Source: Pyropia yezoensis
Lineage: Eukaryota; Rhodophyta; Bangiophyceae; Bangiales; Bangiaceae
Direction: 5' to 3'
DNA: 64,000 nucleotides
NCBI GenBank assembly: GCA_009829735.1
Contig: CM020619.1
Coordinates: forward strand, 12,949,777-13,013,776
Made by a program: the position numbers and the translations under genes. Positions 1 through 34,303 of the stretch are shown here, piece by piece; the first letter of the stretch is position 1; each line of letters opens with the position of its first letter. The notes below the pieces were generated by a model. The model did not search any database and was not told the origin of the DNA. It was given only the letters and a program-made list of their open reading frames with translations.

Positions 1-3000
1 CCGCAGGCAGTGAGGGGAGGTGCTACGCTTCCAAAGCACGCGCCCAAGCTGGGTCGCCTGCAGGCGGTGGTGCAACTTTGACCACGTCCTGTCCGTTCAC
101 TGTGCGGACCCCATCGTCACTTTCGATGGTGAAGCGCCGCCCATCAGTACGAAGGACCTGGTACGGTCCCTTCGTCTGGAATACCAGCTTACCCCCAGTT
201 GGGGTGTGCGAGTGTACCAGCACCCAGTCACCCTGCTCGGGGACATGTTTAGCATTGCGCACCTTTTTGTCAAAGGTACGCTTGTAGCGCTTTTGTGCTT
301 TGTCCATCTCAGCCCTGACTTTAGGGATGAGGTTTTCAAGCCTAGCGGCGAACTCCGCCTTACTCTCAGTAGGAGTAGGCGTACTGCCACCATCCTCCCT
401 AGTTGGGAGCGACCGCCGCACGGCAATAGACCGCACGCGACGGGGGGTCACAAAAGCGAGGGGTACTTCCCCTGTAGATGAGTGAACCTGCGAATTGTAG
501 GCAGTAGTAAGGATAGAAATGTATTGGTCCCACGTCTTCACGTGCTCACTCACATAGTGGCGCAGCTGCCTAACAATAGTTTTGTTGAAGCGCTCCACCT
601 GCCCATTAGTTTGTGGGTGGTAGGGGGTGGCATAGTTTGCCTTAACCCCCAACATATCCAGCACTCCCTGAAACAGTACAGACGCAAATTGCGGTCCATT
701 GTCCGATAGTGTACTATCTGGGATGCCATACGCGGCAACCCGGTAATCTAGGAAGGCTGACACGACCGACATGGCCGTGATCTCTGCCAGTGGGATCGCT
801 CGCGTAAGTTTCGTGAAGCGGTCACAGATGACCAGGAGGTACTGGTTGCCCTCCTCGGTCACGGGCAGTGGCCCAAGGATGTCCATCGCCAACGCGGCGA
901 AGGGCTCCTTGGCCGGGAATAATAGCATAGCCGTACTAGGCCGCCGTTCCATCAGACGGTTCTGTGCACAACTTGTGCAGGCAGCCACCCAACTGTAGAT
1001 GTCCACCACCATGGACGGCCAGTAGTACCTGGTCCTCAGGGTCTGGTACAGTTTACTAGACCCCAGGTGTCCACCCGTGGGAGCGTTGTGCTCCCTCTCA
1101 AGGATACTGTCCTTGAGGGATGCGGGGACGACAAGTTGTTCGGTCCCCTGGAATACCCCCCTCCTCATGAGGAGGCCATCGTCTCCCAGAAAGAAACGCG
1201 TCTCTACCACTGTATCCAGTATATCCCTCTGCGACTTGCAGAAGGGATCCTCGGCCTGGGCCTTCACCACCTCCTCCAGGGACAGGGGCAAGTACTTCTT
1301 GTTCCCTGGCGCCTCGGGGTTCAACGCCTGACCCGAGCGCGTGACTACCCCCACGATGGGGATGTCCTCATCAACTGGGTTAGTGTCCAGCCCCTCGGTA
1401 GGTACCCGAGAGAGGCCGTTGGCAAGGGCATGTTGCCTGCCAGGTCGGTACTCAGTATCAAAGTTGAACGGTGCCAGTCGCACCCTCCACCGGTTGAGAC
1501 GAGTGTTCGTTCAGTCCGTCTTGCAGATAAACTGCAACGCGCGGTGGTCACAGCGGATGAGGAACTTCTCACCCTCTAGGTAGTGACGAAGTGACGTCAC
1601 CGCCCACACCACTGCGAGTCCCTCCAACTCGTTGACTCCGTAGCTCTTCTTGGCCGAGTTCAGCCCTTTACTGAAGTATCCCACCGGCAAGTACTCCTTG
1701 TCCGGCTGCTGCTGAAGCAACACACAACCAAGTTGGTCGTAGCTAGCGTCCACATCCAGGATGTAGTGGCCTCCCAACCTGGGAATAGCCAAGATAGGGG
1801 GCTTCAGCAGTAGGTCCCGAAGAGTCTCAAAGGGTTCCTGCTCCACCCGACTTAGGGAAGGCAGGTTCTTCGGTAGCGTCGAGCTAACTAGCTCAGTCAG
1901 TGGCTTAGCCACCTTGGCGAAGCCCTTGGTGAAACGTCGGTACACGCTACACATCCCGAGGAAGCTCCTCATCTGGGTCTGGGTCCGGGGGTACTGAGCC
2001 TTACGAATGGCCCTCAAGATCTTCTCGTTAACACTGAGACGCCCCGGATGGACAACATGTCCCAAGTACTCCACCTCTTAAGTAAAGAGGTGGCACTTAC
2101 TCGCCTTCAGTGACACACCGGCGTCCGCAAGTAGCTTGAACACCTGGCCAAGATGGCCAATGTGTTCCTCCGGACTTCGGGAGAACACAATGATATCGTC
2201 TAGGTACACAAGACAGATCTGCCACCGTACTCCGGCCAGAATCATGTCCATAGCGCGCTGGAAAGTTGCCGGCGCGTTACACAGACCAAACGGTTGTCGC
2301 TTGCACTGGCAGGTACCACAGTGACAGGTAAAGGTAGTTTTATGCCTGTCTTCCTGGGCAATGGGAATTTGCCAATACCCCGCGTTACAGTCCAGGGTAG
2401 AGAACACTTTTGCCTCCCCCAGAGAGTCCAGACAGTCATCCATCCTAGGTAGGGGATAACTGTCCTTCACCGTGCTCTCGTTGAGCTTACGGTAGTCGAT
2501 ACAAAACCGGGGGGTCCCATCAAATTTGGGGACGATAACCACCGGACTCGCCCACTCGGCGTTGCTGGCCTCAATCACATCGAGGGCCTCCATGCGAGCA
2601 ACTTGCTCCTTAACGAGGGCCCTTGAACGAGGTCCTCCCCTATACGGTTGTTGGCGTATAGGGGGTGCACCGGGCTTCAACTCGATCCGGTGTTGGGTGG
2701 CTCTCATGAGTCCCAATTGACCATCCCACAACTTGTGATATTGGTCCAAGAGGCGTTCAACTTGAACCCTCAACCTGGGGGGGACACCCTCCATGTTCAC
2801 ATGGGGCCGAGGAGAGGCGGCCGACTTGGCTTGATGCTTCTCCTTTCCGGACTTCGGGTCGCTACTTGCGCCCGCGTTGAGGGTGAGCGCTACTACCGGT
2901 CCCTCGTGTTGGTCGATATAGCCGAACTTGGCTCCCGACTTGAAGTACTTGGGCGTCGGGCTCAGGTTCATCACCTGGATCCACCACGGGACTCCGGCTT

Positions 3001-4071
3001 TGGAGTCCATCGCGCCCAGGGCAACATGCACTTGGTGCTTGCGAGCAAGACGGGGGTGAGGGTGCACCAACCCGTTCCCCGTAAAATCAGTTACAACATC
3101 AACGTGCGCCACCGAGTTGGGGGGCAACGTGACTTTGCGGGCTAAACGCAGGGTAGCAGTAAACCCTTCCCTCACCGAACAAACAGGCTTCGACTGTGAG
3201 ACTGTCACAGGAGCCACAGACATTCCCTTACCAAGGATGGGGATAGTCTCCCCATTCATCAACTTGACCCAGTACTCAGGGCCACAAATCAAAGGCACTT
3301 GTGTAACAACATAAGGGGTACCCAGAAGCAGGGGTACCGATATATTCTCAACTACGCCATAGGTCACGTCGACCTCATGGGTCCCCAACCTAGTTGGTAG
3401 GGTCACGGCACCAACGATGGGAAGTACCCCACCATTGACGTCAATCATATGGTCAGCTTTGGACCTCCAGCGTTGGAGCTTCACCTCCTTTGGTAATAGC
3501 GACTTGCGTATCAAGGAGGCTCCTGACCCGGTATCAAGTACGATACGGGCACAACAGGCACGGCCGGGGGCTAGTTGCACCCGTCCAGCCACCTGGAAGT
3601 TTGCACCCGTCAGCACCGCGATGACCCGACGTGGGTTTACGTTCTTGGGGAGTCCTACCCGAGGTGGGCGGACTCCCTTAGGTCGCCGCAGTATCCGGCA
3701 CGGCTGGTTCGTCCTCCTGGCCCACTTGGCCGAGGCTGCCGTTGTGAGCTTCGGACGACCAGCCCCAACGGTCATTCGTTTCCCGCCGACTTGGCGTCCG
3801 AATCTGAGGGCGGGGAGGAAGACGACGAGTCCGAGGACGACGTGTCCGCCTCCTCCGCCGAGGGTGTGGCGACCGCAACGACCGGTCGAGACCCACCCTC
3901 GCGGGTGAACGTACTTCGTTCGTAGCCGACTTTTTACTCGCATTCCTAAACAAGTTGTTGGATGCGTTTACTCAACTTGGGGCAAATCATATGCCCAGTG
4001 ACCATCGGAGTTTGCAGTTCCAACACCGATGGTCCGTTCCGGGAGGGGACTTCCCAACTGGGGAAGACGAA
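1..4071 (-). mobile_element. Partial family A Ty3/Gypsy element, duplicate of 4741-8813
   Basis: This stretch carries, on the minus strand, the last part of gag (CCHC region, near 4071), protease, RT, RNase H and integrase of a chromovirus-type Gypsy element. It matches 4741-8813 essentially base for base. The differences I see are mostly one-base indels: gttttcaag versus gtttttcaag near 333/5072, cacgaccgac versus cacgacgac near 765/5504, and several close to the edge of the N gap at 3900-4071. All substitutions that break the pol frame are shared by both copies. This is more easily explained by the same locus assembled twice than by two independent insertions. The 3' LTR is not present before base 1. 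Confidence 0.85.
23..3775 (-). pseudogene. pol: Family A pol (PR-RT-RNaseH-IN), copy 1, with in-frame stops
   Basis: Minus-strand polyprotein starting at 3775 (MTVGAGRPK), which in the second copy overlaps the gag stop as ATGA. In order: aspartic protease with VLDTGSGASLI (about 3540), RT with CIDYRKLNES (about 2490), WQIPIAQEDR and the YLDDIIVFS active site (about 2190), RNase H with LDVDASYDQLG, and integrase. The integrase has an HHCC zinc motif (EHNAPTGGH then CTSC), catalytic Asp in MDILGPLP and SDNGPQF, and Glu in GQVERFNK. Three in-frame stops interrupt it: CAA to TAA at 2075-2077 between RT and RNase H, TGC to TGA just above 1484, and TGG to TAG at 23-25 before the chromodomain. The residues are inferred by comparison with the copy at 20577-24362. 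Not translatable as one protein. Confidence 0.88.
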
Positions 4072-4571: not shown

Positions 4572-7500
4572 GCACAGTATGCCCGGACCTTCTCAGCGGG
4601 AAGGTCCTCCACATAGTCCCACGTATCATCCTTGGCTTTGTAGCCAAACCAACGCACCCTCAACATGAGGCGGTCAGTGTCTTCATCCCATCCGTGGTCG
4701 ATGAACTTATCAAACACGTACTCCTGCGGGCCCTGTTTGGCCGCAGGCAGTGAGGGAGGTGCTACGCTTCCAAAGCACGCGCCCAAGCTGGGTCGCCTGC
4801 AGGCGGTGGTGCAACTTTGACCACGTCCTGTCCGTTCACTGTGCGGACCCCATCGTCACTTTCGATGGTGAAGCGCCGCCCATCAGTACGAAGGACCTGG
4901 TACGGTCCCTTCGTCTGGAATACCAGCTTACCCCCAGTTGGGGTGTGCGAGTGTACCAGCACCCAGTCACCCTGCTCGGGGACATGTTTAGCATTGCGCA
5001 CCTTTTTGTCAAAGGTACGCTTGTAGCGCTTTTGTGCTTTGTCCATCTCAGCCCTGACTTTAGGGATGAGGTTTTTCAAGCCTAGCGGCGAACTCCGCCT
5101 TACTCTCAGTAGGAGTAGGCGTACTGCCACCATCCTCCCTAGTTGGGAGCGACCGCCGCACGGCAATAGACCGCACGCGACGGGGGGTCACAAAAGCGAG
5201 GGGTACTTCCCCTGTAGATGAGTGAACCTGCGAATTGTAGGCAGTAGTAAGGATAGAAATGTATTGGTCCCACGTCTTCACGTGCTCACTCACATAGTGG
5301 CGCAGCTGCCTAACAATAGTTTTGTTGAAGCGCTCCACCTGCCCATTAGTTTGTGGGTGGTAGGGGGTGGCATAGTTTGCCTTAACCCCCAACATATCCA
5401 GCACTCCCTGAAACAGTACAGACGCAAATTGCGGTCCATTGTCCGATAGTGTACTATCTGGGATGCCATACGCGGCAACCCGGTAATCTAGGAAGGCTGA
5501 CACGACGACATGGCCGTGATCTCTGCCAGTGGGATCGCTCGCGTAAGTTTCGTGAAGCGGTCACAGATGACCAGGAGGTACTGGTTGCCCTCCTCGGTCA
5601 CGGGCAGTGGCCCAAGGATGTCCATCGCCAACGCGGCGAAGGGCTCCTTGGCCGGGAATAATAGCATAGCCGTACTAGGCCGCCGTTCCATCAGACGGTT
5701 CTGTGCACAACTTGTGCAGGCAGCCACCCAACTGTAGATGTCCACCACCATGGACGGCCAGTAGTACCTGGTCCTCAGGGTCTGGTACAGTTTACTAGAC
5801 CCCAGGTGTCCACCCGTGGGAGCGTTGTGCTCCCTCTCAAGGATACTGTCCTTGAGGGATGCGGGGACGACAAGTTGTTCGGTCCCCTGGAATACCCCCC
5901 TCCTCATGAGGAGGCCATCGTCTCCCAGAAAGAAACGCGTCTCTACCACTGTATCCAGTATATCCCTCTGCGACTTGCAGAAGGGATCCTCGGCCTGGGC
6001 CTTCACCACCTCCTCCAGGGACAGGGGCAAGTACTTCTTGTTCCCTGGCGCCTCGGGGTTCAACGCCTGACCCGAGCGCGTGACTACCCCCACGATGGGG
6101 ATGTCCTCATCAACTGGGTTAGTGTCCAGCCCCTCGGTAGGTACCCGAGAGAGGCCGTTGGCAAGGGCATGTTGCCTGCCAGGTCGGTACTCAGTATCAA
6201 AGTTGAACGGTGCCAGTCGCACCCTCCACCGGTTGAGACGAGTGTTCGTTCAGTCCGTCTTGCAGATAAACTGCAACGCGCGGTGGTCACAGCGGATGAG
6301 GAACTTCTCACCCTCTAGGTAGTGACGAAGTGACGTCACCGCCCACACCACTGCGAGTCCCTCCAACTCGTTGACTCCGTAGCTCTTCTTGGCCGAGTTC
6401 AGCCCTTTACTGAAGTATCCCACCGGCAAGTACTCCTTGTCCGGCTGCTGCTGAAGCAACACACAACCAAGTTGGTCGTAGCTAGCGTCCACATCCAGGA
6501 TGTAGTGGCCTCCCAACCTGGGAATAGCCAAGATAGGGGGCTTCAGCAGTAGGTCCCGAAGAGTCTCAAAGGGTTCCTGCTCCACCCGACTTAGGGAAGG
6601 CAGGTTCTTCGGTAGCGTCGAGCTAACTAGCTCAGTCAGTGGCTTAGCCACCTTGGCGAAGCCCTTGGTGAAACGTCGGTACACGCTACACATCCCGAGG
6701 AAGCTCCTCATCTGGGTCTGGGTCCGGGGGTACTGAGCCTTACGAATGGCCCTCAAGATCTTCTCGTTAACACTGAGACGCCCCGGATGGACAACATGTC
6801 CCAAGTACTCCACCTCTTAAGTAAAGAGGTGGCACTTACTCGCCTTCAGTGACACACCGGCGTCCGCAAGTAGCTTGAACACCTGGCCAAGATGGCCAAT
6901 GTGTTCCTCCGGACTTCGGGAGAACACAATGATATCGTCTAGGTACACAAGACAGATCTGCCACCGTACTCCGGCCAGAATCATGTCCATAGCGCGCTGG
7001 AAAGTTGCCGGCGCGTTACACAGACCAAACGGTTGTCGCTTGCACTGGCAGGTACCACAGTGACAGGTAAAGGTAGTTTTATGCCTGTCTTCCTGGGCAA
7101 TGGGAATTTGCCAATACCCCGCGTTACAGTCCAGGGTAGAGAACACTTTTGCCTCCCCCAGAGAGTCCAGACAGTCATCCATCCTAGGTAGGGGATAACT
7201 GTCCTTCACCGTGCTCTCGTTGAGCTTACGGTAGTCGATACAAAACCGGGGGGTCCCATCAAATTTGGGGACGATAACCACCGGACTCGCCCACTCGGCG
7301 TTGCTGGCCTCAATCACATCGAGGGCCTCCATGCGAGCAACTTGCTCCTTAACGAGGGCCCTTGAACGAGGTCCTCCCCTATACGGTTGTTGGCGTATAG
7401 GGGGTGCACCGGGCTTCAACTCGATCCGGTGTTGGGTGGCTCTCATGAGTCCCAATTGACCATCCCACAACTTGTGATATTGGTCCAAGAGGCGTTCAAC

Positions 7501-8514
7501 TTGAACCCTCAACCTGGGGGGGACACCCTCCATGTTCACATGGGGCCGAGGAGAGGCGGCCGACTTGGCTTGATGCTTCTCCTTTCCGGACTTCGGGTCG
7601 CTACTTGCGCCCGCGTTGAGGGTGAGCGCTACTACCGGTCCCTCGTGTTGGTCGATATAGCCGAACTTGGCTCCCGACTTGAAGTACTTGGGCGTCGGGC
7701 TCAGGTTCATCACCTGGATCCACCACGGGACTCCGGCTTTGGAGTCCATCGCGCCCAGGGCAACATGCACTTGGTGCTTGCGAGCAAGACGGGGGTGAGG
7801 GTGCACCAACCCGTTCCCCGTAAAATCAGTTACAACATCAACGTGCGCCACCGAGTTGGGGGGCAACGTGACTTTGCGGGCTAAACGCAGGGTAGCAGTA
7901 AACCCTTCCCTCACCGAACAAACAGGCTTCGACTGTGAGACTGTCACAGGAGCCACAGACATTCCCTTACCAAGGATGGGGATAGTCTCCCCATTCATCA
8001 ACTTGACCCAGTACTCAGGGCCACAAATCAAAGGCACTTGTGTAACAACATAAGGGGTACCCAGAAGCAGGGGTACCGATATATTCTCAACTACGCCATA
8101 GGTCACGTCGACCTCATGGGTCCCCAACCTAGTTGGTAGGGTCACGGCACCAACGATGGGAAGTACCCCACCATTGACGTCAATCATATGGTCAGCTTTG
8201 GACCTCCAGCGTTGGAGCTTCACCTCCTTTGGTAATAGCGACTTGCGTATCAAGGAGGCTCCTGACCCGGTATCAAGTACGATACGGGCACAACAGGCAC
8301 GGCCGGGGGCTAGTTGCACCCGTCCAGCCACCTGGAAGTTTGCACCCGTCAGCACCGCGATGACCCGACGTGGGTTTACGTTCTTGGGGAGTCCTACCCG
8401 AGGTGGGCGGACTCCCTTAGGTCGCCGCAGTATCCGGCACGGCTGGTTCGTCCTCCTGGCCCACTTGGCCGAGGCTGCCGTTGTGAGCTTCGGACGACCA
8501 GCCCCAACGGTCAT
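4572..8514 (-). pseudogene. pol: Family A pol, copy 2, frameshifted, with C-terminal chromodomain
   Basis: Same polyprotein as at 23-3775 but including the C-terminus. Pol starts at 8514, and its ATG overlaps the gag stop codon (ATGA) so that pol lies in another frame. Protease, RT (YLDD), RNase H and integrase follow in order. The integrase coding region is cut by one-base indels near 5072 and 5504 that are absent from copy 1, so these may be sequencing errors. The TAA between RT and RNase H and the TGA between RNase H and integrase are shared with copy 1. Beyond about 4762 lies a chromodomain-like stretch with YVFDKFIDHGW, RVRWFGYKAKDDTW and EDLPAEKVRAYC, as in chromovirus integrases, which is thought to steer insertion to heterochromatin. 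Confidence 0.85.
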
Positions 8515-10457
8515 TCGTTTCCCGCCGACTTGGCGTCCGAATCTGAGGGCGGGGAGGAAGACGACGAGTCCGAGGACGACGTGTCCGCCTCCTCCGCCGA
8601 GGGTGTGGCGACCGCAACGACCGGTCGAGACCCACCCTCGCGGCGTGAACGTACTTCGTTCGTAGCCGACTTTTTACTCGCATTCCTAACAAGTTGTTGG
8701 ATGCGTTTACTCAACTTGGGGCAATCATATGCCCAGTGACCATCGGAGTTGCAGTTCCAACACCGATGGTCCGTTCCGGGAGGGGACTTCCCAACTGGGG
8801 AAGACGAAGGGATACCCTGGGAAGTTCCCACGGCAGCTACTACCCTCTCCTTGCGGATTCGGCGTGCCTCTCTCAACTCTCTGGCCTGGCGCGCCTCCTC
8901 CCGTTCCTTGGCCAAGTCGGCCTGACGCTCCTGGCGTTGTTCCTCCCGCAACTTGCGGTAGGCCTCGCCTCTGCGATAGGCGAACCTGGCCAACTCGGCC
9001 AGGGTCGCCCGGGCAGTGTTATGCTCCCGGGTCTCCATCCGGACTGACCAATGGAGTCCCTCCACAAACCGACTCTTCACCACAGCTTGTGGATGAAGAA
9101 ACCTACAAAGATTGTTGAGCTTACGGACTCGCTCCGCAAAGGAGAACTCGTCCTCCGCCTCTTCCTGATGGGCTTGCGTAAACTCCTCGACTTGAGAAGC
9201 CAACGCTGCCTCATCAACCATGGCTCTCATCAACCAGTTGACGAGCTCCAAATAGGACGTCACCTCCCCAGCGCCTCCACTTAAGGGGCTGGGCATGACG
9301 GACATAAGTTCTGTCCGTAGGTCGCCCTTCGTAAACTCCTGTAGCATGTAAAAAGCCATGCCTTCATTTATGGCATTGTCGTCGCAGCCTTTTGTGAAAC
9401 GACGTAGGAACTCAAAGACACGGAGGGGGGGAGTTCCATCCCACTCCGCTTTGTGCCGAAAAGCATGAAGTGCATTCTTCTTGGCACGGCCCATGGCTCG
9501 GGCCTGGTCAGGACCATACGCCACCGACTTGTTGTGGAGGGCGTAGGTCTCACAGTCAAAGATCCTCTGGTAGACCGGGTTGGCTACCTGGATCTTGGGC
9601 GGCACCTCACGTTGAGGGAAAAGCCGCTGTGGCACTGGGGTAAGTTCACTCTCAGTGCCTGTAGTCCGGCGCGGCGCGCTTGGTGTAGCCGCCGGCGTTT
9701 CCGGGGCGAACTCCCCCGTGAAGGGCGTACGCCCCACCGAGTATGGTGTGGCTCCCTCGTTGGGAGTCACAGGTGTCGCCCCCAGTTCGGGGCGACCAGA
9801 GATAGGCGTAAGGGGGGATTACCCCTGCGCCTGCGGGCTCGAAAGCCCCAATCCGGTTTGGACATTAAGGCCATCTGGCAAACTCGCCACAATCTGATTC
9901 AGAATAGTATTCTTCATCGTGACCACCAGGTCCGGCAAAGTCTGCCGCAACACATTGGTCGCCTCCCGACGGACAATTTCCGCGAGGAGTGGATTGACGA
10001 CTCCAGTTGAGTCCCGGTCCGCCTCCGGGAGTCCACCTGAGGGGTAACCACGTTCCTCAGGGGTCTCAACCGGGGGCATGGGCGCGAGCCCATCGCCGAC
10101 CAACGGAGGTCCGCCGTCCTCCGAAAGCCTAGTTGGCGACGACTCCTAGCCAAAGTTGGCTCCAACCAGAGTGGAACCCGCGGGGACAGTCCTCACCCCT
10201 TGGGACGTTCCCGTTGAGTATACCACACGGTGGCCAGACTTCGGCCCACCCACATCAGAAGTGTCACCCGAGTGAACTCCCGACTGAGTCGGGGTGGCCT
10301 GTTGCCCGCCCGTACTTCCAGTCCTGCTGGCTTGAGCGACCTCTAGTCCCTCTGCGACCCCAGGTACACCTACCTGTGTCTCACCAGGATTTGAAGGCAC
10401 TGAAGTACGTGCGTCACCCGTGTACTCCCCGGACGACGGGGGGTCCGAACTAGCCAT
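8511..10457 (-). pseudogene. gag: Family A gag, 648-codon frame with two in-frame stops
   Basis: One continuous minus-strand frame from ATG at 10457 to TGA at 8511-8513, 1947 nt, exactly as long as the gag of the element at 18634-20580. Codons 1 to about 210 are Gly/Ser/Thr/Pro-rich. The middle (about 9600-9000) is a capsid-like domain with VYQRIFDCETYALHN and FLRRFTKGCDD. A basic, Arg/Glu-rich coiled-coil-like stretch follows near 8950-8860. The CCHC zinc knuckle CWNCNSDGHWAYDC lies near 8750, with an acidic Ser/Asp tail after it. Two stops occur in frame: TAG at 10146-10148, private to this copy, and TAA at 9819-9821, which is shared with the other element. The last bases form an ATGA overlap with pol. 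Gag would form the virus-like particle. Confidence 0.85.
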
Positions 10458-10556
10458 GTTGGCTGACGATCCGTATGACACGGTCCAAGACCACCGTTCC
10501 TCTGAGACAGAGGAACCCCTACACCCGGGTGCACCCGGAGGTAAAGTTTACCTCTG

Positions 10557-10574
10557 TCCCCTGCTGCTCCACCA
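10557..10574 (-). promoter_or_regulatory. Primer-binding site of the family A element
   Basis: Two bases inside the 5' LTR, reading on the minus strand, lies TGGTGGAGCAGCAGGGGA. It starts with TGG, the complement of a tRNA CCA end, and is identical in the element at 18045. I cannot say which tRNA it pairs with. Confidence 0.75.
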
Positions 10575-10576
10575 AA

Positions 10577-11045
10577 TGTGGCAAAAACCACTAGCACACA
10601 CGGCACCCAAGTTGGGGCGGTGTGCTAGGGCTGCCTCCCGTGTCGGGGGAACCGGAAGAAGTGCAAGTCGCACACACTCTGTCCCTGTTGTGGGGCAAAC
10701 CCCCCACGGACAAACAAGAGGATGGTGTGTGGTCCAACAGTTTCTTGGTCGGGACGGGGACGCCGGGCCAAGCCCCGCTGTCCCTCCCCTTATCCCCCCA
10801 GGGTCCACTCAGAATCTCGCCACTCAGAATCTCCCATCCCAGCACCTGCCCACCGGGCCACACGAAAATTCAAGACGATAAATGCAGAAAACCCTGGAAT
10901 CCAAGTTGGATTTACTACTAAGCTAACTATCCCAAACTTAGGGAATATGGACCCAAATGCAGGGGGAGGAACGGATCAGGCTAGTGGCCTGCCGCCCCTT
11001 GCATGGCACGTGTTGCCCCCTTACCTGGGGGTCAATACTGCCACA
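10577..11045 (-). repeat. 5' LTR of the minus-strand family A element
   Basis: 469 bp, TGTGGCA...TGCCACA on the minus strand. It is homologous along its whole length to the LTRs at 18045-18514, 26753-27217, 30294-30759 and 33836-34303. The long open frames that cross it on either strand are not conserved coding sequence. Confidence 0.9.
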
Positions 11046-14000
11046 CAGGCGGCCAAGGATGAGGAGGCGGCGGGCCCCCTCGACGGCGCCGGCGAGGACC
11101 TCGTCGCGGCCATCACAGGCGCGGCAGAGGCGTTCAGCGTTTACTGCGGTGGCCGGGCGGCGGCAAGCGAGACAGAGGTGGAGCTCGCCGCACGTGCCAA
11201 GACGGCCGCTGGTCTGATTGGCGTGGCCGCCGCGGGCCTCCCCCGGCGCGAGGCTCCCTCGGACGCATCGCGCGCCCGCAAGGGGCGGACGCAAAATTGT
11301 GGCGGATGTGGCAAGCCGGGGCACAGGGCCAGCTTTTGCAACGCCCCTGCTGGTGCCGTTCCGGCAGCCTCGGCCGCCGTCGCTGGCCCGGCGGCGGCCG
11401 CGTCAAAGTGTCGTGACTGCCTTGGAAGGGGCCACAGCCGCGGGGACCACGCCTGTCCGGTGCAGCGGCACTGTGGGGGTGGGTCGGCGGCGTAAGACCG
11501 CGGCGTCGACCCCGACTGCAAGGACCCGCGGCAAAGCAGTGGACGGCAGACGCGGGCGTGTATCGTGCGGGTGGGCGTCCTCTCTAGGGCGGTGTTTAGG
11601 GACGACAAGGACGACGCCGAAACGCGTGCGGCGGTGGTGACGGTGCTGCAAGCAGAGCTGGGGGAACTCTCTGGGGCGGCTACCGAGCTCCGCTTCCTCA
11701 TGCTCCGCGTCCCCGGCGGGGCATTGCGGCGCCTTGTGGCAGCCGTCGCGGACGCAGCCGGCGACACCGACTGGACGGCGGCCGTGCTCGCAAACTGGAC
11801 GCCCGTTTGGCCGTGATCGGGGTACGCCTGCGACTGCGAGGGTGCGTCTTGCAGTCCCCTCAAGACCGGCACCGTGTGTGCGGGGTGTGGCAAGGGGTGA
11901 GCTAACACGCGGTTGGCGCGCGCCCACTCCGTGGTGATGAAGAGCCACCCGCTGCTGGCAGAGGCGCTCTCCTACGCCTTGACGCAGGTGATGGCCGTCA
12001 CGGCAGCCGCATGTGACAGGTACCTTCCGGCAAGCAAAAGCACGGCACAATGGGAGCCCGTCGCAACCATCGGGGCCACCCATGCCGAGCGGTGGGTGAA
12101 GGCGGCGTGTCGCAAACTGGGCGCCAAGGCGGTCTAGGACGTGCTGGCCACACTCCCTGCTGCCACTGCTGATGCGCGCGGCGCCTGCGGCTCTCGCTGG
12201 GACACAGAGCGGCGGCTAACGCGGTGGGCGGCCGCGCGCTTCCGTGCGGGTGCCGCGAGCCAGGCAAGGCCGGGCCGGTGGGGCCTCGACAGCGTCTCCC
12301 AAAACCTCGTCCAGGCGCTGGTGCAACGGGTGGCCGTCATGTGGGCGGCCATGCCACCCTCTGTGGCGAGCCTCTTTCCAGCAACGCCTGCAAAGAAGCG
12401 CCGCTGGTGGCGTACGTGCCGTTTCTCCTCCACGTCCTGAATGTGGGTGTGGATAGCCCGTACGCCCTCATCCCGGGCGTCCGGGATGTGCATCAGGGGC
12501 ACTGCACGCTGGAGCCGAGAAAGATGCTCGCGCTGTAGCGGGCAGTGGCGGACGCCACAGGCGTGGGGGTGCGTGGCCGACCCAGTCTTCGGGCATGGCC
12601 AGAACTACAAATAGAAGGTGCAGCAGTGCTGACCGCCATGGCTGGTGTCGGTTGCCGCGCCAACCGTGCCGCCTCCCAGCTGTCTACCCACGGCGAGGCC
12701 GTGACGTAATTTCTGTCGCGACCCGACACGGCCCCAGAGGCCGAGGCGCGGGCGGTGCCCTGGGCAAAGAAGCTGTGCGGCGGTAGACCTGCACAGGGCT
12801 GCAGTGTCAATGGCTTTGCGTCCCGGGAGGGGGCGCTGACGCAGCTGGGGTAGGCTGCCCTGCCGTTGGCGCTCTGTTGAGGCTCCAGACGGTCGGCGGA
12901 GACCCAGAACGGTCTCCCGTATTGTCGGGAGCCGCGGGTGAGCGCGTGGCGACGGCAGACCTCCCCGCCCGCCCCGTAGTTGACGCGATGCGCGCCTCGT
13001 GTTCCCGCCCTATGGGCCTGGCCGCGCTCAACCGTGGCGCTACTGCGTGGTGCGGGCGTCCAAGACGGGGTGGCAGCAGACGAAGGCATGCCCGGGGGCC
13101 GCTTACCCAGTGGGTCTAGGAAGCGGGCGGCCGCGGGCGCCCCGGCTGCAGGGGCGGCGAGAAGAGGGAGGGAGCGCTCCAAGCGGCAAGCGCGGCGGTC
13201 GTCACTTGCGAGGAGCAATGATGCGGCGGCGGTGGCCCCGGCAGCGGGAGGTGAGGCGGCGGCGGGTGCGGCGCCCCCCCCGGCGATGACTTACCAGACG
13301 GGCAGCCCCAGCAGTGGCCTCGGGCGTGTGCGGCGAGGGCCACAGGCGTCGATCGAACGGGGCCGCCGCACCCAGCTCGCCACTTCGGTGCGGCGCGTAC
13401 TGCGTCTCACGCGCCTGTCCCGGTGGACTGTGCCCCGTCACGAGGCGGAAAAGATGGCACGGTGGCTGGTGGACCCCACTGCCTACCGCGAGCGGTTCGG
13501 CGCGAATGCCACGCGACAACTGCAGGCGATGCGTGTGCGCAAGGCCATCCAGCGCGGCCGCTTCGCTGGCTTGGTGGCGCGGGACCTGACCGGCGGCCTC
13601 CTTCGCCAGGTCCGTGGCGGCCGCGCGGTCTTCGTGGCCATGGGCAGCGAGCACGTGCGCGCGGGGGACGCCTGGCTCCGCCGCTACCTCCGACCGCTGT
13701 GCCGGTTTATCGACCAGGACGACTTCAACACGAGCCAGGCGTGCTCAGAGTGTCATGAAAAGATGGTGCTCATCTACTCGACGGGCGTCTCCCGCCCCAA
13801 GATTCCAGGGGAGCAGTATGGGCCACCCATCGGCCCGCTGCCGTCGACACGGCGTGTGGGGGTGGCGGCCAGATCGCGTCGGGGGCGGCCAAAGCGGGCC
13901 ATCCACTCTGCTACCCACGTGAAGCGGCGAGGGGTGCACCACGACGCCTACCGGGCGGCCTTCCCAGCCACTTCCCGTTCTGCCGCTGTGGCGCGAAGCG

Positions 14001-14055
14001 CGGCCGCGCTGGCCGCCTGTGCCGTTGAGGACCGCGCCGTCTATGCTGACCCGAG
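11046..14055 (+). pseudogene. Decayed mobile-element ORF with Fanzor/TnpB-like C-terminal part
   Basis: A roughly 3-kb plus-strand coding fossil in several frames. The best part is 13200-14055, frame of 12980. It has a helical Arg-rich stretch (ATRQLQAMRVRKAIQRG), then VFVAMGSEHVRAGDAW, then LCRFIDQDDFNTSQACSECH. This order matches the Fanzor/TnpB C-terminus: a strand with G-S before a loop, a polypeptide step, then D-E-x-x-TS-x-x-C-x-x-C of the RuvC-II and zinc-ribbon region. A later VKRRGVHHDAYRAA may be the remains of the second zinc-ribbon half plus the RuvC-III Asp (family consensus WHRDVNAARN), with its cysteines lost. Upstream, 11046-13200 is broken by stops at about 11492, 11814, 12135 and 12536. 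The reading frame ends where the LTR at 14056 begins. Assignment rests on motif order only; a distant IS605-like or other zinc-ribbon transposase is the alternative. Confidence 0.45.
11283..11494 (+). pseudogene. Two zinc-knuckle motifs in the N-terminal part of the decayed element
   Basis: Plus-strand frame of 10722, real sequence only from 11046 because the part before is LTR. It shows CGGCGKPGHRASFC, a perfect C-x2-C-x4-H-x4-C knuckle, and then CRDCLGRGHSRGDHAC with the same start and a longer tail, separated by an Ala-rich linker. The frame stops at 11492-11494. The knuckles could be the nucleic-acid-binding end of the same decayed protein as the Fanzor-like segment or of a separate gag-like ORF. 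Confidence 0.5.
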
Positions 14056-14627
14056 TGTGGTATAAAACTCGATCCGCTCAGACACGTGTCTATATCCCTC
14101 GGGGAAAAGGGACAGGTAACACAGAAAGAGGAACTAAGAGAGTGGTACGCCTGTTGCCTCCCGTTCCTGTCGGCAGGGCCACCAGATACGCACGGTAGTG
14201 TACACGGGGAAGAGGAAAGCAAACGCGCAGTTGTCTTTTTCCTTGAGGGCGCGGGCCAAGCGCGCCTCGCAGTCCCTCTCAACGTGCATCTGGGGAAGCC
14301 TCGGCACGTTGGCCAGGTAGCCCCCTCCTACCCCCGAGTGTTCCCGACCCGAATCTAACCTCGTCAGGTCGGGGGCCGCTATCGCAACTAATTCTATTCT
14401 CCCTCATTAAGCTCACACTCAATTTCTATCAGGTCAAGTCCCCCACAAATATGCTGCCACCCATCAGAAGTCCCTCTCTCACGTGTGCGTAGCGTAGTCC
14501 ACCGCATCCCCGTGCCGGGCACAAGCTACGGCCGCCAACCATCCCCACACGGCGGGCGTGTTCTGGCACCTGGTGTCCCCTGGTCGCCTTCTCGGGTCGA
14601 CGCCAAGTCAGGGCCAGGGATGCTACA
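14056..14627. repeat. LTR of family D, copy 1
   Basis: 572 bp, starts TGTGGTATAAAACTCG and ends GATGCTACA. It is homologous along its length to 15566-16136. Flanks are CCGAG on the left and TAGCT on the right, so there is no target-site duplication; the copy is either one end of a larger element or a recombined remnant. It cuts off the Fanzor-like frame on its left. Strand relative to its parent element is unknown. Confidence 0.75.
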
Positions 14628-17214
14628 TAGCTCCCTCCCTAGTCCGGCACGTCCTCGGGCCGTACCAGGTTCCACCGTGCACAGCCTCGAGCACGCCCAC
14701 ACCGGTGCCGAGGTCGAGCGTCCCCACCCTGCGCCGTGATCACCTTCCTCTTGCCCCCGCCTCCTTCTTCCTTCATCTTGGCCTTCCCGTTCCCCTTGGG
14801 TTCTGGACGGCATTTCCAGCACCGAGATTCAGGTTGGGCCCGAGGCTCCTGTGGCGGGTCCCGCGGAGAAGAACTCGGGTGGTCTTGCCCCTCTCCTGCC
14901 TCCGGTTCCTGGGGTGTCGGCGCGGACACCCGTCGTCACAGCGGAGGATGCGGATCCAGAGCCCCCGGCTCCGGCGTCGCGCCCGATCGAGACCCCCCCC
15001 GTGGGTCTCCCGGAGATGCTTATCGGTCATAATCCCCTGGCGGCCCGGCGCTACACCACGGTGGTCGGGAACGTCAGCACTTGACCTGTGACCTCCGTCC
15101 AGAGATGGTCGCTCGGGAGCCGCCCTTCTTGACCTCGAAGTACTCAATGCTGTCGCCGGCTCGTGAGCAAGGCGAGCTTCGGAGGCGCCAACGGGACTAC
15201 ATCGTAAGCTGCAATCACCAAGCGTTCTGGAAGCTCGACATAGCCAACCAGGCGGCGCACTACCCCACGTTCATCCCGCAGCAGCATGAAATTGACATCC
15301 CGGTTGTGTTCGCACCATCGAACATCCCCTTCACCTGGTACTTCTTGGACGCCCTCAACCAGGCGTCGATCAAGGGCTTCTCCCACTCGATCCCGTACAT
15401 GATGTACACCTCCGAGATGACGGTCTTGGCGGCCAACCACTGGCTTCACGAGGTCTTGGTGTCCATCCGGCTCTGGCTCCTCTCGAATCTCATGATTGTC
15501 TGAATTGTCGAGAAGCTGACGGTCGACTTCTTGTGCAGCCAGGATGTAGAGTACAAGGAGCTCTTTGTGGGGTAAAACTCGATCCTCTCAGACACGTGTC
15601 AATATCCCTCGGGGGAAAGGGACAGGTAACACGGAAAGGGGAACTACGAGAGTGGTATGCCTGTTGCCTCACGTGCCTGCTTGCAGAGCAAACAGATACG
15701 CACGGTAGTGCACACGGGGAAGAGGAAAGCAAACGCGCAGTTGTCTTTTTCCTTGAGGGCGCGGGCCAAGGGCGCCTCGCTGTTCCTCTCAACGTGCATC
15801 TGGGGGAGCCTCGGCACGTCGGCCAGGTACCCCCCCATACCCCCGAGTGGCCCCGACCCGAGTCTAACCTCGTCAGGTCGGGGGCCACTATCACTACTAA
15901 TTCTATTCCCACTCACTAAGCTCGCACTCAATTTCTCTCAAATCAAATCCCTCACAAGTATGCAAAAACCCATCAGAAATCCCTCTCTCACGTGCGGATA
16001 GCGTAGTCCACCACATCCCAGTGCCGGGCACGGGCCACGGCCGCCAACCATCACCACACGGCGGGCGTGCTCTGGCACCTGGTGCCCTCTGGTTGCAGTC
16101 CCGGGTCGGCGCCAAGTCGGGGCCAGGGATGCTACACTCTTCCAAGCGATGATCGACTTCCGGCGTCAACTCCCGGTGCACGACGGGACATTCTTGAGCT
16201 CGATCGCGGATAAGAATAGTCCGCGTCGGGATGGCTCGGGTGTGGTGCAGGTAATCAACCAGACTTCTCCTGCCAAGGTGCAGCTGGCAATGCCGTTGCC
16301 GGCGTGGCCGCAGCTGGGATGTCCTCCTGCGCCGGCCGCCTTGGACCTGCTGCCACCTGGTCCGGCGGTACAAGAGTCGGGGTGAGCTGCGGCGATTGGT
16401 CGGGCGTCTGCGAGTGTTCAAGTTCCTCTGGTTACTCCTGCTGCACCGGTGGCTTCGCCTTCGCCTTTGCCGGCCCTTGCGCACCAGGCCCTTCCTCCAC
16501 CGGTTCTTCAGGTTCCTCCGGCATCGTTTTTGCCGGCTGCGGCTCTCGGCGTCGCTCCCGGCAGTACCATCCGGTCGCCTGCTACCCCAGGCGCTCCTCC
16601 TCGTGTGACTTCCTCGGCTGGTGGCGTCTCGGTGCCCACCCTCGAGTTGGGTAGTCCTGTTTCCGGCGTCGGTCCTAGCCGTCCGGGTGTGGCGTCATCA
16701 GGTCTGTTTGAAACTCTGGCGCCGACGCTGCGCCTTTCCCGCTTCCGGGTGCCCGACTGGTACCTGACGCAAGGTGGCCTGTCGTGTGACCGGTACGATG
16801 TGGGCATGATTAAAGATCAGCTGAGCCGACTTCCGGTACAGGTTGAGGGCGTCGAGTCATCCTTGGTGATGTGCACGTATGCCAGCGTCTTGGACGACGT
16901 GGTCGACAGCGTGTTTGCTTGTGCAGACAGCGGCCAGACGTCGGACAGTCCGGTGGTTGCTGAGGACCTTTCGACCTTGACCCGGCATGGCTTGGCCCAG
17001 GGCTGGTCAGGGACCTTCACGAGTTTCCAGGAGCGTCGGCGGGTGTACTTGGAGGAGCGGGAGCATCCGGTGGTCAGTAGTGATGTTCCGTTAGCGGAGT
17101 ACGTCGAGGCGTCTTGACCGCTGGACTACGTCATCCGGTCATCCTCTGGGTCCCGTCGTGCTGCTGACGAGGCGCTGGAGGACGTTCCTGCGGCGCAGCG
17201 CGCGCGTCGGGATT
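14628..17214 (+). pseudogene. Decayed ORF of unknown function, split by a solo LTR, distant relative of the antisense ORF at 24474-26504
   Basis: From 15081 one plus-strand frame runs to TAA near 17212, apart from TGA stops at 15501, 16383 and 17115 and the inserted LTR (15566-16136 plus 5-bp duplication, 576 bp, so frame is kept). Joining across the LTR restores KELFQAMIDFRRQL. An earlier frame, 14851-15084, is probably the same protein before a frameshift. The segment 15110-15500 aligns by eye with the 676-aa protein encoded at 24474-26504. Both have a PP-[FY]-L block, a [GD]-[PD]-Y-x-V block, then YP...P, an IP, and a helix NHWLHEVL versus TQWLLEVM at matching spacing. The later part is Pro/Ala/Val-rich and ends in an acidic helical stretch. 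I do not recognise a described family. Confidence 0.5.
15566..16136. repeat. Solo LTR of family D with target-site duplication CTCTT
   Basis: 571 bp, TGTGGGGTAAAACTCG...GATGCTACA, homologous to 14056-14627. It is flanked on both sides by CTCTT (15561-15565 and 16137-16141), a 5-bp duplication typical of LTR integrases. Removing the LTR and one CTCTT joins two halves of an open frame, which confirms that it inserted into an existing ORF. Confidence 0.88.
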
Positions 17215-26752: not shown

Positions 26753-27217
26753 TGTGGCAGTATTGACCCCCAGGTAGGGGGCAACACGTGCCATGGCAGG
26801 GGCGGCAGGCCACTAGCCTGACCCGTTCCTCCCCCTGCATTTGGGTCCATATTCCCTAAGTTTGGGATAGTTAGCTTAGAGTAAATCCAACTTGGATTTG
26901 AGGGTTTTCTGCATTTATCGTCTTGAATTTTCGTGTGGCCCGGTGGGCAGGTGCTGGGGTGGGAGATTCTGAGTGGTGAGATTCTGAGGGGACCCTCGGG
27001 GGATAAGGGGAGGGACAGCGGGGCTTGGCCTTGCTTCCCCGTCCCGACCAAGAAACTGTTGGCCCACACACCATCTTCTTGTTTGTCAGTGGGGGGATTG
27101 CCCCACAACAAGGATAGAGTGTGTGCGACTTGCACTTCTTCCGGTTCCCCCGACACGGGAGGCAGCCCTTGTGCACCGCCCCAACTTGGGTGTCTCGTGT
27201 GCGAGAGGTGCTTTTCA
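26753..27217 (+). repeat. 3' LTR of complete family A element
   Basis: 465 bp, TGTGGCAG... to GAGGTGCTTTTCA, followed by the target duplication CAGGC (27218-27222). Marker bases: ccatggCagg near 26797, and a one-base deletion in gcttagagtaaat near 26880. Confidence 0.85.
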
Positions 27218-30200
27218 CAGGCGGGAGACCGTCCGGTATTTTTTCCAGGGAGAAGTTGGGCAGCCGCCTTGGGACAACAAAGTCTAGTGGAGCTACCCCT
27301 GTTGTCCGGTGAACACGACAGTTTTATGCTCAAGTGAGGACGGCCAGGAGCTCGTCCCATTCTTTTTGATGCTCCTAGACGTAGTGCCGAAGCATGTCCA
27401 CTAGGGTCCGGTTGAATCGTTCCACATGACCGTTCGTCTGTGGGTGGTACGTCGTAGTAAACAAGTTCTTGATACCCATCAGGTCACAGACTCCTTGGAA
27501 GAAAAGGGATGCAAACTGGGGACCATTTTCGGTTAAGACGGAGTCCGGAGGTCCATAGGCAGCTATCCAGTACTCGCAGATGGCCGACGTAACATCCAGG
27601 GCCGTGATGGTTCTTAGTGAGATTGCTCGGGTGAACTTGGAGAGCCGGTCACAGATAATGAGCCGGTAAAGGTTGCCACTGGGTGTCTCAGGTAGGGGCC
27701 CCAGGATGTCCATGCTCAAGCTTGCAAGGGGTTCCGCCGCAGGAAGCAGTCGTAGCTTAGAAGTCTTCTTCCTCTGGGTCAACCGATTCCTTGCGCAGGA
27801 GACACAGGCCTCTAGATGCTTGTGGACGTCACTTGCCATGGTTTCCCAGTAGTAGTGTCGCCGCATTGAGGCGTACATCCGGTTGATGCCAGGGTGTCCA
27901 GCCTGGAGAAGCGAGTGTTCCAGGCGGAGGATATCAGCTCGTTGGTTTTGGGGTACGTAGACTTGAGTTGCCCCATCAAATGGTGATACCCATATCATGA
28001 GTCCATCCGTAGACTCGGAGAAGCGACTATTCCGGTTCAGGTCCATCTGGTGACGGATCTCTAAGCAATGAGGATCCTTGAGCTGTGCCTCCAGCATTCG
28101 GTGAATGGTTAACGGTTGGTGGGCTTCAGGCGACTCGTATAAGGGAGCATGCCAACCACATCCGACATTTGGGAGGATAAAACAGGGTATTTCTTCCGGG
28201 ATAGGGCCCGTATCGGCTGCAGGAGTCTCCAACCGGGACATGGTGTCGGCGCAGTGGTGCTCCCTCCCTGCTCTTGTGCACACCTCGTCCTTGAATTCCG
28301 AGAGGCGTAGACGCCACCGGGCGACCCTTCCTTGGCTGCTGTCCAAGCATAGCAGCCACCTTAGGCTGGCGTGGTCCGTCCGGATGAGAAACTCTTGTCC
28401 TTCTAAATAGGGGCGTAACAGGAAACAGGCCCAGACGACTGCCATGCACTCGCCTTCCGTCGTAGAATAGTTCTTCTCTGCTGGAGTAAAGACGCGACCG
28501 TAGTAGCCCACCGGGAGGAAGTGCCCATCAGGTTGTTGCTGGAGTAGAGAGCACCCAACCTGGACGCCACAGGCGTCGGTTTCTAGGACAAACTGGCCCT
28601 TCCGCTTGGGTAGCGCCAGTACTGGAGTCGTGGTCGGGCGCTTTTTAAGCTCCTCGGAGGCGGCTGTCTGTTTCTCGTCGAACACCGGGGGTTGTGCAGG
28701 GAGCTTCTTGCTGGTGAGCTTGGTCAACGGCCTGGCAATCAGGGCGTAGTCGCGTACAAACCGGCGGTAGACGTTGCACATACCCAGAAAGCTCTTGAGT
28801 TCCGTCTCGGCCTTGGGTTGCCGGGCTTGCCGAAGAGCTTTGACATTCTTCTCGTTGACACGAAGCTCCCCCGGGCTCAGTACATGCCCCAGGTATTCAA
28901 CCTCGGGCTCCAACAGGTGGCACTTTTCTGCCTTCAGGGTGATTCCACTCTTGTACAGGAGAGCCACGACCTCTCGGAGGTGCTCTAAGTGTTCCGCCGG
29001 AGTTTTGGAGAAGACGATGGCATCGTCCAAGTAAACCAGACATGTCCTTCATCTTTGCCCCGACAGGATGATGTCAATCGCTCTCTGGAAGGTATCCGGA
29101 GCAATGGTGAGGCCAAAAGGAAGTCGCTCGCACCGGAATAGCCCTATATGGCCCGTGAGGGTGGTCTTGTCCTTATCCTCGTCGGCCAGAGGGATCTGCC
29201 AGTATCCCGCGTTACAATCCAGAGTTGAGAAGAGGGTGGCGTCACCGAAAAAGTCGATGCATTCATCCAGCCGGGGTATTGGGTATACATGCTTGACCAT
29301 CATCTCGTTCAAGCGCCTGTAGTCGACGCCAAAACGGAAGTGATCGCCAGGTTTCGGGACGACCACCACCGGGAAGGCCCACTCGCCATCTGAGGGCTCG
29401 GTAACATCCATCTTGAGCATCTTGGTAATCTGCTTCTCAATCTCATCCCGGCGATGTGGTCCAGCCCGGTACGGTTGCAGGTGTACTGGGTTAGCATCCG
29501 GCTTCAGTTGAATCCGATGTAGGGTGCCGTCCATCTTGCCCAGCTCTCCCGACCACAGGTGCCGATGTTCTTGGAGAAGCTTCTCCAGAGCCTCCTTCAG
29601 GTCGGGAGGAAACTTTTTTTGGTTAACGTTCGGCATTTTGGGCGGTGCTTGCTCGGGATTTGGGGCAACGCCAGCAGCCTGTGCTTGTTCCGGAGGTACG
29701 CCCAGGACGGATAGGTTGAACTCCAGTACTTGCTGCAGGTTCAAAAGGTCCTCCTTGCTCAGGGCTCGGGCAGAGCCTCGAAAGGGTTCGGCTGTTCCAA
29801 CTCGGGTGTTCTTGGCAAGAGTTATCGGTTTACGGCTCACGTTTACGACGAACACGGAGAATAGGACGTCCTTTCCACCTTCCGGTCGTGCCCATGGGCC
29901 AGATATAACCGGTGTTTCGCCAGAAATTCCTTGCGTCCGAAAATCAGGCATTGACCCGTTGTCCGGGTAGTCACTTGAACCTTGGCTTCCGAGCGAGGAG
30001 GAAGAAGCACTGGTATGAAGAGCGTCAAGGTAGAGGGTGGGATACGGTCCTTCTTGCTCTTGACTACACGAACCTTGGTGTCCAGATGCTCCAGCACCGG
30101 CGACACAAATCCATGGTTGAACTGTACCCTTCCTTCTCCTGGCAGGATACTCTTGACATGCTGCTTCTGGGAGTCCCAGCCTAGGATGAGGGGGACGGAG

Positions 30201-30293
30201 AGGGTCTTAACTACAAGAGAGGGAAAACAGCATTGGTTCATTGTTGACAAAAATGGTGACAGGAAGGCGGCCAAGCGGTCATACAGTATGACC
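27218..30293 (-). pseudogene. pol: Family B pol, tandem copy 1 (protease end, RT, RNase H, integrase start)
   Basis: Minus strand from 30293. Protease end with SVPLILGWDSQKQHV (about 30180). RT has FRFGVDYRRLNE, TLDCNAGYWQIP and, after TGA at 29031-29033 replacing the Trp codon of RWQICL in family A, LVYLDDAIVFS. RNase H has LETDACGVQVG and FLIRTDHASL. Integrase has HHCC (EHSLLQAGHPG, CVSCARNR) and catalytic MDILGPLPE, TENGPQF and GHVERFNR. TAG at 27375-27377 follows MLRHYV, then TGA and TAA occur a few codons on. Recognisable integrase (TTGVAPLDFVVPRRL) goes on to the LTR junction at 27218. The copy at 30760-33835 differs at only a few bases. Confidence 0.88.
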
Positions 30294-30759
30294 TGTGGCA
30301 GTATTGACCCCCAGGTAGGGGGCAACACGTGCCATGGAAGGGGCGGCAGGCCACTAGCCTGACCCGTTCCTCCCCCTGCATTTGGGTCCATATTCCCTAA
30401 GTTTGGGATAGTTAGCTTAGTAGTAAATCCAACTTGGATTTGAGGGTTTTCTGCATTTATCGTCTTGAATTTTCGTGTGGCCCGGTGGGCAGGTGCTGGG
30501 GTGGGAGATTCTGAGTGGTGAGATTCTGAGGGGACCCTCGGGGGATAAGGGGAGGGACAGCGGGGCTTGGCCTTGCTTCCCCGTCCCGACCAAGAAACTG
30601 TTGGCCCACACACCATCTTCTTGTTTGTCAGTGGGGGGATTGCCCCACAACAAGGATAGAGTGTGTGCGACTTGCACTTCTTCCGGTTCCCCCGACACGG
30701 GAGGCAGCCCTTGTGCACCGCCCCAACTTGGGTGTCTCGTGTGCGAGAGGTGCTTTCCA
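30294..30759 (+). repeat. Hybrid family A LTR at the joint of the tandem duplication
   Basis: 466 bp. Its left flank is TGACC (30289-30293), as at the solo LTR 33836-34303. Its right flank is CAGGC (30760-30764), as at the 3' LTR 26753-27217. Left of about 30423 its variable bases match the solo LTR (ccatggAagg, gcttagTagtaaat). From about 30518 on they match the 3' LTR (gagtgGtgag, acagcGggg, tgtcTcgtg, gaggtGCttt). This is the product expected of an unequal crossover between those two LTRs. Confidence 0.85.
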
Positions 30760-33700: not shown

Positions 33701-33835
33701 TGCTGCTTCTGGGAGTCCCAGCCTAGGATGAGGGGGACGGAGAGGGTCTTAACTACAAGAGAGGGAATACAGCATTGGTTCATTGTTGACAAAAATGGTG
33801 ACAGGAAGGCGGCCAAGCGGTCATACAGTATGACC
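30760..33835 (-). pseudogene. pol: Family B pol, tandem copy 2
   Basis: Same content and same stop codons as 27218-30293, shifted by 3542 bp: RT Trp-to-TGA before LVYLDDAIVFS at about 32573, and integrase stop after MLRHYV at 30917. Only about three base differences were noticed over 3 kb (near 31913, 31987 and 33768), so the duplication is much younger than the LTR insertions beside it. Confidence 0.88.
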
Positions 33836-34303
33836 TGTGGCAGTATTGACCCCCAGGTAGGGGGCAACACGTGCCATGGAAGGGGCGGCAGGCCACTAGC
33901 CTGACCCGTTCCTCCCCCTGCATTTGGGTCCATATTCCCTAAGTTTGGGATAGTTAGCTTAGTAGTAAATCCAACTTGGATTTGAGGGTTTTCTGCATTT
34001 ATCGTCTTGAATTTTCGTGTGGCCCGGTGGGCAGGTGCTGGGGTGGGAGATTCTGAGTGCTGAGATTCTGAGGGGACCCTCGGGGGATAAGGGGAGGGAC
34101 AGCAGGGCTTGGCCTTGCTTCCCCGTCCCGACCAAGAAACTGTTGGCCCACACACCATCTTCTTGTTTGTCAGTGGGGGGATTGCCCCACAACAAGGATA
34201 GAGTGTGTGCGACTTGCACTTCTTCCGGTTCCCCCGACACGGGAGGCAGCCCTTGTGCACCGCCCCAACTTGGGTGTCGCGTGTGCGAGAGGTTTTTGCC
34301 ACA
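33836..34303 (+). repeat. Solo family A LTR inserted in the family B protease
   Basis: 468 bp, TGTGGCAG...TTTTTGCCACA, flanked by TGACC at 33831-33835 and 34304-34308. The minus-strand protease is split: RILDASGH on the right and the rest of the protease on the left. Private bases gagtgCtgag (34060) and acagcAggg (34104) distinguish it from other copies. Confidence 0.92.

Follow-up and report, generated by a model that had tools for sequence, protein, structure and literature searches.

A probable zinc-knuckle Fanzor family occupies the end of a giant helicase-bearing element in the red alga Pyropia yezoensis

A decayed gene in the genome of the red alga Pyropia yezoensis belongs to a large family of nuclease-type genes, and this gene is the last of a giant mobile element, near 40 kb in length, with a UPF1-like helicase gene upstream. 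We consider it very likely that the family is a form of Fanzor and that the decayed stretch derives from a Fanzor-type gene; this assignment rests on ordered motifs, a weak TNB profile match under its cut-off, and a profile-profile match with a score beyond that of every shuffle. The decayed copy lies in a 64,000-nucleotide stretch (hereafter, the window; GenBank assembly GCA_009829735.1, contig CM020619.1, positions 12,949,777 to 13,013,776 of the forward strand). A first-pass annotation, made from the sequence alone, had proposed there the remains of a eukaryotic TnpB/Fanzor homologue whose N-terminus carries zinc knuckles, a proposal that the motifs and both kinds of profile match support. 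It was right in the main, while the giant element that carries the gene at its end was not visible to it.

The window copy is a pseudogene, the dead fragment of a probable Fanzor-type gene (Table 1). Its span, 11046–14055, corresponds to exactly one decayed copy of a multicopy gene at 86–88% DNA identity: against an open family copy, blastn aligned 11046–13483 at 86.0% and 13481–14055 at 87.7%, with ~372 bp deleted internally at 13483. When placed on a 1,391-residue homologue, the copy covers residues 78–900 and 1022–1215 and is without residues 1–77, 901–1021, and 1216–1391, and frameshifts and stops divide it into three tblastn pieces with 4, 5, and 0 in-frame stops. Because a Ty3/Gypsy copy ends at its left edge and an LTR starts at its right edge, these borders are exact, and together with the blastn extent they bear out the span given in the first-pass annotation. 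The VFVAMGSEHV and FIDQDDFNTSQACSECH motifs are likewise present where they had been reported. Reading the latter as RuvC-II and the first half of a zinc ribbon is supported by E-x6-CxxC occurring in every copy read; where other copies have the Glu at the catalytic position, the window copy has Asp (13721–13723). The two upstream CCHC knuckles, suspected of being part of the same protein, are so in the open copies. The placement of the second zinc half and the RuvC-III Asp at VKRRGVHHDAYRAA was wrong, because the window copy lacks the CYTC...NRD segment that forms the true second half; VKRRGVHHDAYRAA maps instead to a 110-residue insert between the zinc halves.

Table 1 Features of the decayed gene copy and its neighbours, in window positions
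Feature	Position	Strand	Evidence and remarks
Ty3/Gypsy retrotransposon copy	4572..11045	-	its end borders the remnant on the left; 97.3% to a Gypsy insertion within a different family member
gag-like ORF with CCHC zinc knuckle	8511-9770		inside the Ty3/Gypsy copy 4572..11045
Fanzor-like remnant piece 1, residues 78-548 of open copy	11046..12425	+	frame 3; tblastn 75.9% identity; 4 stops in 11031-12425
Zinc knuckle 1, CX2CX4HX4C, CGGCGKPGHRASFC	11298..11339	+	read from sequence; pattern kept in 11/12 open copies
Zinc knuckle 2, CX2CX4HX6C variant, CRDCLGRGHSRGDHAC	11409..11456	+	read from sequence; pattern kept in 11/12 open copies
Fanzor-like remnant piece 2, residues 544-900	12410..13483	+	tblastn 61.9% identity; 5 stops in frame
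RuvC-I remnant GGDPE	12895..12909	+	ORF 12877-13119; frame differs from rest of piece 2; GGDPG in 15/18 other copies
Fanzor-like remnant piece 3, residues 1022-1215	13481..14055	+	blastn 87.7%; tblastn 76.8%; 0 stops; follows ~372-bp deletion
VFVAMGSEHV	13628-13657		read in window copy
FIDQDDFNTSQACSECH, RuvC-II/first zinc-ribbon half	13706..13756	+	read from sequence; E-x6-CxxC in 18/18 copies read
LTR element truncating the gene ahead of CYTC and NRD	14056..16136	.	LTRs 14056-14627 and 15566-16136, 88.6% identical (window self-comparison)

Other parts of the window also hold repeats. Positions 1–4071 and 4741–8808 are 99.8% identical, and 26753–30761 and 30294–34303 are 99.7% identical; these repeated LTR-element stretches point to very recent copying or to tandem arrays. 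An inverted 751-bp pair (39022–39772 and 40174–40924) shows 99.5% identity.

Across the genome assembly (107,475,971 bases), at least 167 matches to the family were found in one search and at least 81 in another. Eighteen other copies were read from end to end by assembling overlapping stretches from each place; 12 of these retain a frame of 1,288–1,414 amino acids from a common start, in line with the first-pass suggestion that intact relatives may exist elsewhere in the genome. Openness alone proves little, because GC-rich DNA readily yields long frames, and several copies indeed carry frames of 752–970 residues on the opposite strand. That the open frame is merely an artefact of GC-rich sequence is nonetheless a negligible prospect, already contradicted by the codon-position pattern (variation of 0.164 at third positions vs 0.100 and 0.093 at the first two), by a pN/pS of 0.44 over 66 pairs of open copies (below 1 in 66/66, range 0.28–0.61), and by protein identities of 46–63% in other relatives. 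The nuclease family is thus under coding selection. When calculated by segment, pN/pS ranged from 0.33 to 0.65, with catalytic segments (0.37–0.65) no lower than the remainder; the ratio, being similar throughout the protein, does not mark out the catalytic region. In public annotation, family members appear as hypothetical proteins of Pyropia yezoensis, and the matches in database searches with them were confined to Pyropia proteins and unnamed relatives from metagenomes (12 in one search, 9 in another). The same genome holds a second nuclease family, ~40% identical to the first, at locus L067 (C2:15533800-15534500), which keeps GDA...E-x6-CxxC. Two more places at ~40% identity to the nuclease family were seen at C3:20621304 and C3:13038894.

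The open copies present their motifs in a fixed order: two CCHC-type knuckles (each in 11 of 12 open copies), DPG (RuvC-I), E-x6-CxxC, a second CxxC (CYTC), and NRD, with 21 residues between the last zinc Cys and the Asp of NRD. Among the 18 copies read, GGDPG was found in 15, E-x6-CxxC and CYTC in all 18, and NRD in 17. The window copy and copy L059 have GGDPE instead of GGDPG, and gaps in the set occur in the relatives P0006 (Lys for Glu), P0011 and P0012 (no DPG), and P0013 (no NRD). According to the available text of PMC10711439, DPG and a Glu exactly six residues before the first CxxC distinguish Fanzors from most TnpBs, and the available part of PMC3627910 gives as a Fanzor criterion a second CxxC followed by RD after 5–50 residues. 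The open copies have DPG, the Glu six residues before CxxC, and the second CxxC followed by RD, and their motif order agrees with the motif in that part of PMC3627910 apart from spacing. The published spacing, D-X(125-275)-[TS][TS] with zinc halves 12–18 apart (PMC10711439, available text), is violated by the family: its D-to-E spacing is ~402 residues, and its zinc halves are 110 residues apart; inserts rich in alanine and glycine account for the added length. When the core of an open copy was shuffled 200,000 times, none of the shuffles matched the three relaxed Fanzor patterns that fit the real core. From these motifs, we infer a RuvC fold for the family protein.

The profile search that had been suggested as a check on kinship gave a borderline outcome, with no library match above its curated cut-off, but with a weak TNB match and a profile-profile alignment in register. 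Pfam TNB (PF07282) was the most frequent match to the family, peaking at the RuvC-II/zinc segment and covering its first half only. It matched four of five family segments, always under the cut-off (best 17.7 bits vs 26.3; E 0.0049 for P0007 and 0.004 for one segment), and reached 28.7 bits (E 1.5e-6) on viral Fanzor1. It gave no match in the genome at E 0.001, and none to P0006, P0012, P0013, or L067. NCBIfam and PADLOC yielded no nuclease match and PHROGs none that was informative; Fanzor structures showed no sequence match to the family, searches of solved structures gave chance-level matches, and the AlphaFold prediction of the core had a pLDDT of 36.

A motif search of a viral collection led to contig L068 (IMGVR_UViG_3300042867_001586), which encodes a 671-aa Fanzor1 protein matching PpFz1 (Parasitella) at E 4.5e-35 and SpuFz1 (Spizellomyces) at 2.8e-34. 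In the protein collection, 1,183 relatives of this protein were counted. We built an alignment of 15 viral Fanzor1 proteins, comprising the L068 protein and 14 from the best 120 of these 1,183 relatives, and compared it with the family using hhalign. The RuvC-II/zinc segment (VVV-MG...E-x6-CxxC) was aligned in exact register; the probability was only 3.5–15%, low because both profiles are shallow, and the real score was reached by 0/100 column shuffles of the core and 0/300 of the 63-column segment. The sub-threshold profile scores, the roughly doubled length, and the abnormal spacings could also be expected of an unrelated zinc-binding protein or transposase resembling Fanzor by convergence, an explanation that we judge improbable in the face of three motifs in the right order and a register-true match unreached by shuffles.

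The place of the gene within a larger unit emerged from its surroundings in other copies. The tip sequence GAGGGGTTTAACCGATAGTT (≤2 mismatches) occurs at 80 places in the genome (control 0), and the DNA beyond it is unrelated among the 27 right flanks read. For 44 of the 62 listed gene ends, a tip follows on the same strand after 621–868 bp; of 11 additional partial gene ends, 6 have such a tip after 696–711 bp. Upstream of the nuclease gene, in the same direction, lies a helicase frame of 1,590 residues with a UPF1/DNA2-like domain (AAA_11, E 1.2e-21; structure matches to NAM7 and DNA2), and a nuclease gene end follows within 8.5 kb downstream in 28 of 39 helicase places. Farther upstream lies a left block, and 25 of 40 left blocks have a same-strand tip within 70 kb. 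Among these 25 paired copies, 19 preserve the order left block, helicase, nuclease, and tip, and 17 have a left-block-to-tip distance of 38–53 kb. The shortest paired element holds an assembly gap (500 N), and other insertions probably sit within some of the long ones, as was seen in one copy that we read. Similarity between elements continues to the leftmost bases examined, so the range of 38–53 kb stops short of the left end.

Several further features of the element were observed. About 50 of the 80 tips have a nuclease gene end within 0.9 kb, and some of the remaining tips may be cut-down copies of the element without the nuclease gene. Five perfect palindromes, GCGTTATGTACATAACGC, spaced 62–74 bp apart, are present at L063:882-1178 and in the matching part of L061; in each of the two elements examined, they occupy the interval from helicase gene to nuclease gene, and they are possible binding sites or an origin. 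Many copies have a tandem unit of ~230 bp (spacing ~350 bp) upstream of the helicase (L065:2841-3077), with one inverted copy of the unit in the left block (L065:459-633). Two helicase copies on opposite strands, C2:27704151-27708129 and C2:27918521-27922499, are 100% identical and 210 kb apart, which suggests recent movement or duplication.

EnSpm transposons have matching inverted ends. In the element described here, by contrast, no inverted tip (13 bp, ≤1 mismatch) was found within 40 kb before the 40 left blocks, among 100 of 105 matches listed; of 62 exact tip 13-mers, 60 are known tips, and the other two are not inverted before any left block. Within the 25 element intervals, which run from left block to tip, we found none of the 23 genome places matching tyrosine recombinase (PF00589, a search that could miss divergent recombinases), none of the 22 matching Helitron Rep (PF14214), and none of the nine matching KDZ transposase (PF18758). 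An IS607-type element, as expected for Fanzor2, was considered and rejected: serine recombinase (PF00239) had no match genome-wide at E 0.01. Insertion sites have A at position 1 in 17 of the 27 right flanks and otherwise show no strong preference.

A size near 40 kb and the presence of a helicase are also what an endogenous virus with the nuclease as viral cargo might show, and large DNA viruses are among the known carriers of Fanzor genes (PMC3627910, in its available part). The identical right ends at 80 places argue against a virus, as does the viral collection, in which a search sensitive to close relatives only found no relative of the nuclease or the helicase. From the sequence read on either side of a ~22-kb middle section, we regard a viral origin as very unlikely.

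Comparison with known systems places the family closest in its motifs to Fanzor1 (SpuFz1, PpFz1, GtFz1, and the elements in the available text of PMC3627910), with which it shares the RuvC-I DPG, the Glu six residues before the first CxxC, a C4 zinc site, RD at the end, carriage by mobile elements, and a gene near the right end. Fanzor1 proteins, however, are mostly 600–700 residues long (PMC11423790, available text), whereas members of this family reach ~1,400 and differ in their two N-terminal zinc knuckles, the zinc-ribbon insert, and the longer D-to-E distance. Unlike Fanzor1, the family is missed by the Pfam profile at its cut-off. PpFz1 also has an insert, of ~100 residues, but that one lies in RuvC (PMC11423790, available text) and not in the zinc ribbon.

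At the level of the whole element, the CMe-1A Fanzor1 elements of Cyanidioschyzon merolae (as described in the available part of PMC3627910) are similar in host (a red alga), high copy number, lack of inverted ends, and unclassified status. By that description, which is the basis of the comparison, they measure ~3 kb, in contrast to an element near 40 kb with a helicase. The MCi-2 Fanzor elements of Mucor (same source) likewise have Fanzor in a constant 3' part, no inverted ends, and a variable 5' part, but they are fungal, their constant part is 6 kb, and one subfamily has a partial Crypton transposase, whereas no tyrosine recombinase match was found in the intervals of the element here. The giant EnSpm of red algae (cited in the available text of PMC12477816) is likewise a giant red-algal transposon that carries extra genes, and it differs in its ends.

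The interval between gene and tip is close to constant. In the 27 of 29 loci with both stop and tip that make up the tail set, the stop codon lies 182 nt before the tip in 24 copies, 181 nt in two, and 184 nt in one. Divergence in this tail was 1.0% (11 of 12 copies with coding data) and 1.7% (all 27 copies), compared with a pS of 4.9% and with 4.9% over the 1 kb that precedes the gene, and conservation spans the 182 nt, as only 8 columns vary in more than one of the 27 copies. The tail is predicted to fold mildly better than shuffles (z −1.5 and −1.7), the tip pairing with a segment farther up the tail.

In TnpB and Fanzor systems, the guide is located just beyond the transposon end, and bacterial TnpB is thought to help its element to be kept or copied by cutting the empty site. 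A guide RNA transcribed from the transposon end defines TnpB/Fanzor loci in the available text of PMC10432273, and the layout of gene, tail, and end seen here is the same as the guide-RNA layout in that text. By analogy, the 182-nt tail is a candidate guide-RNA scaffold. Working copies of the last gene of the giant transposon would make a zinc-knuckle Fanzor that binds RNA from the element tail, with the guide portion of that RNA read from host DNA just past the element end. The nuclease would then cut the empty target site, so that the element is kept or copied, and the zinc knuckles would add nucleic-acid binding. Layout and motifs make this guide-RNA mechanism a tentative possibility, well short of an even chance.

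The protein may alternatively be Fanzor-derived while the tail serves only as the end recognised by the mobility enzyme, with no guide RNA. We see this as a serious prospect, if somewhat below even, since transposon ends are conserved for enzyme recognition anyway, and the weak fold, in which the tip pairs with an upstream segment, is compatible with such a role; a gene directly before the end with a near-constant spacer, conservation across the entire tail, and the definition of TnpB/Fanzor loci by an end-derived guide RNA (PMC10432273, available text) weigh against it. The guide-RNA reading in its complete form would make the family a new Fanzor branch of roughly double the usual size, equipped with zinc knuckles and acting as the RNA-guided retention or homing nuclease of a ~40-kb helicase-bearing red-algal transposon, with a guide RNA in the last 182 nt and a guide set by each insertion site. 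In all its parts together, this proposal is possible but rather doubtful.

Both Fanzor in red algae (the ~3-kb CMe-1A of C. merolae; PMC3627910, available part) and giant transposons in red algae (EnSpm; cited in the available text of PMC12477816) were already known. Apparently undescribed are the long zinc-knuckle form, the insert in the zinc ribbon, and the position at the end of a giant helicase-bearing element; our literature search, with subscription papers mostly outside its reach, found no paper joining Fanzor with Pyropia, Porphyra, or CCHC, and three that mention Fanzor together with Rhodophyta, PMC3627910 among them. These findings would extend Fanzor to a form missed by standard profile searches, in a crop seaweed, and would link RNA-guided nucleases with giant eukaryotic transposons. 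A single genome in which dozens of copies are spread over different insertion sites (80 right ends, 62 listed gene ends) would provide many natural guide candidates, and it therefore becomes testable whether Fanzor serves eukaryotic elements in keeping or homing their insertions.
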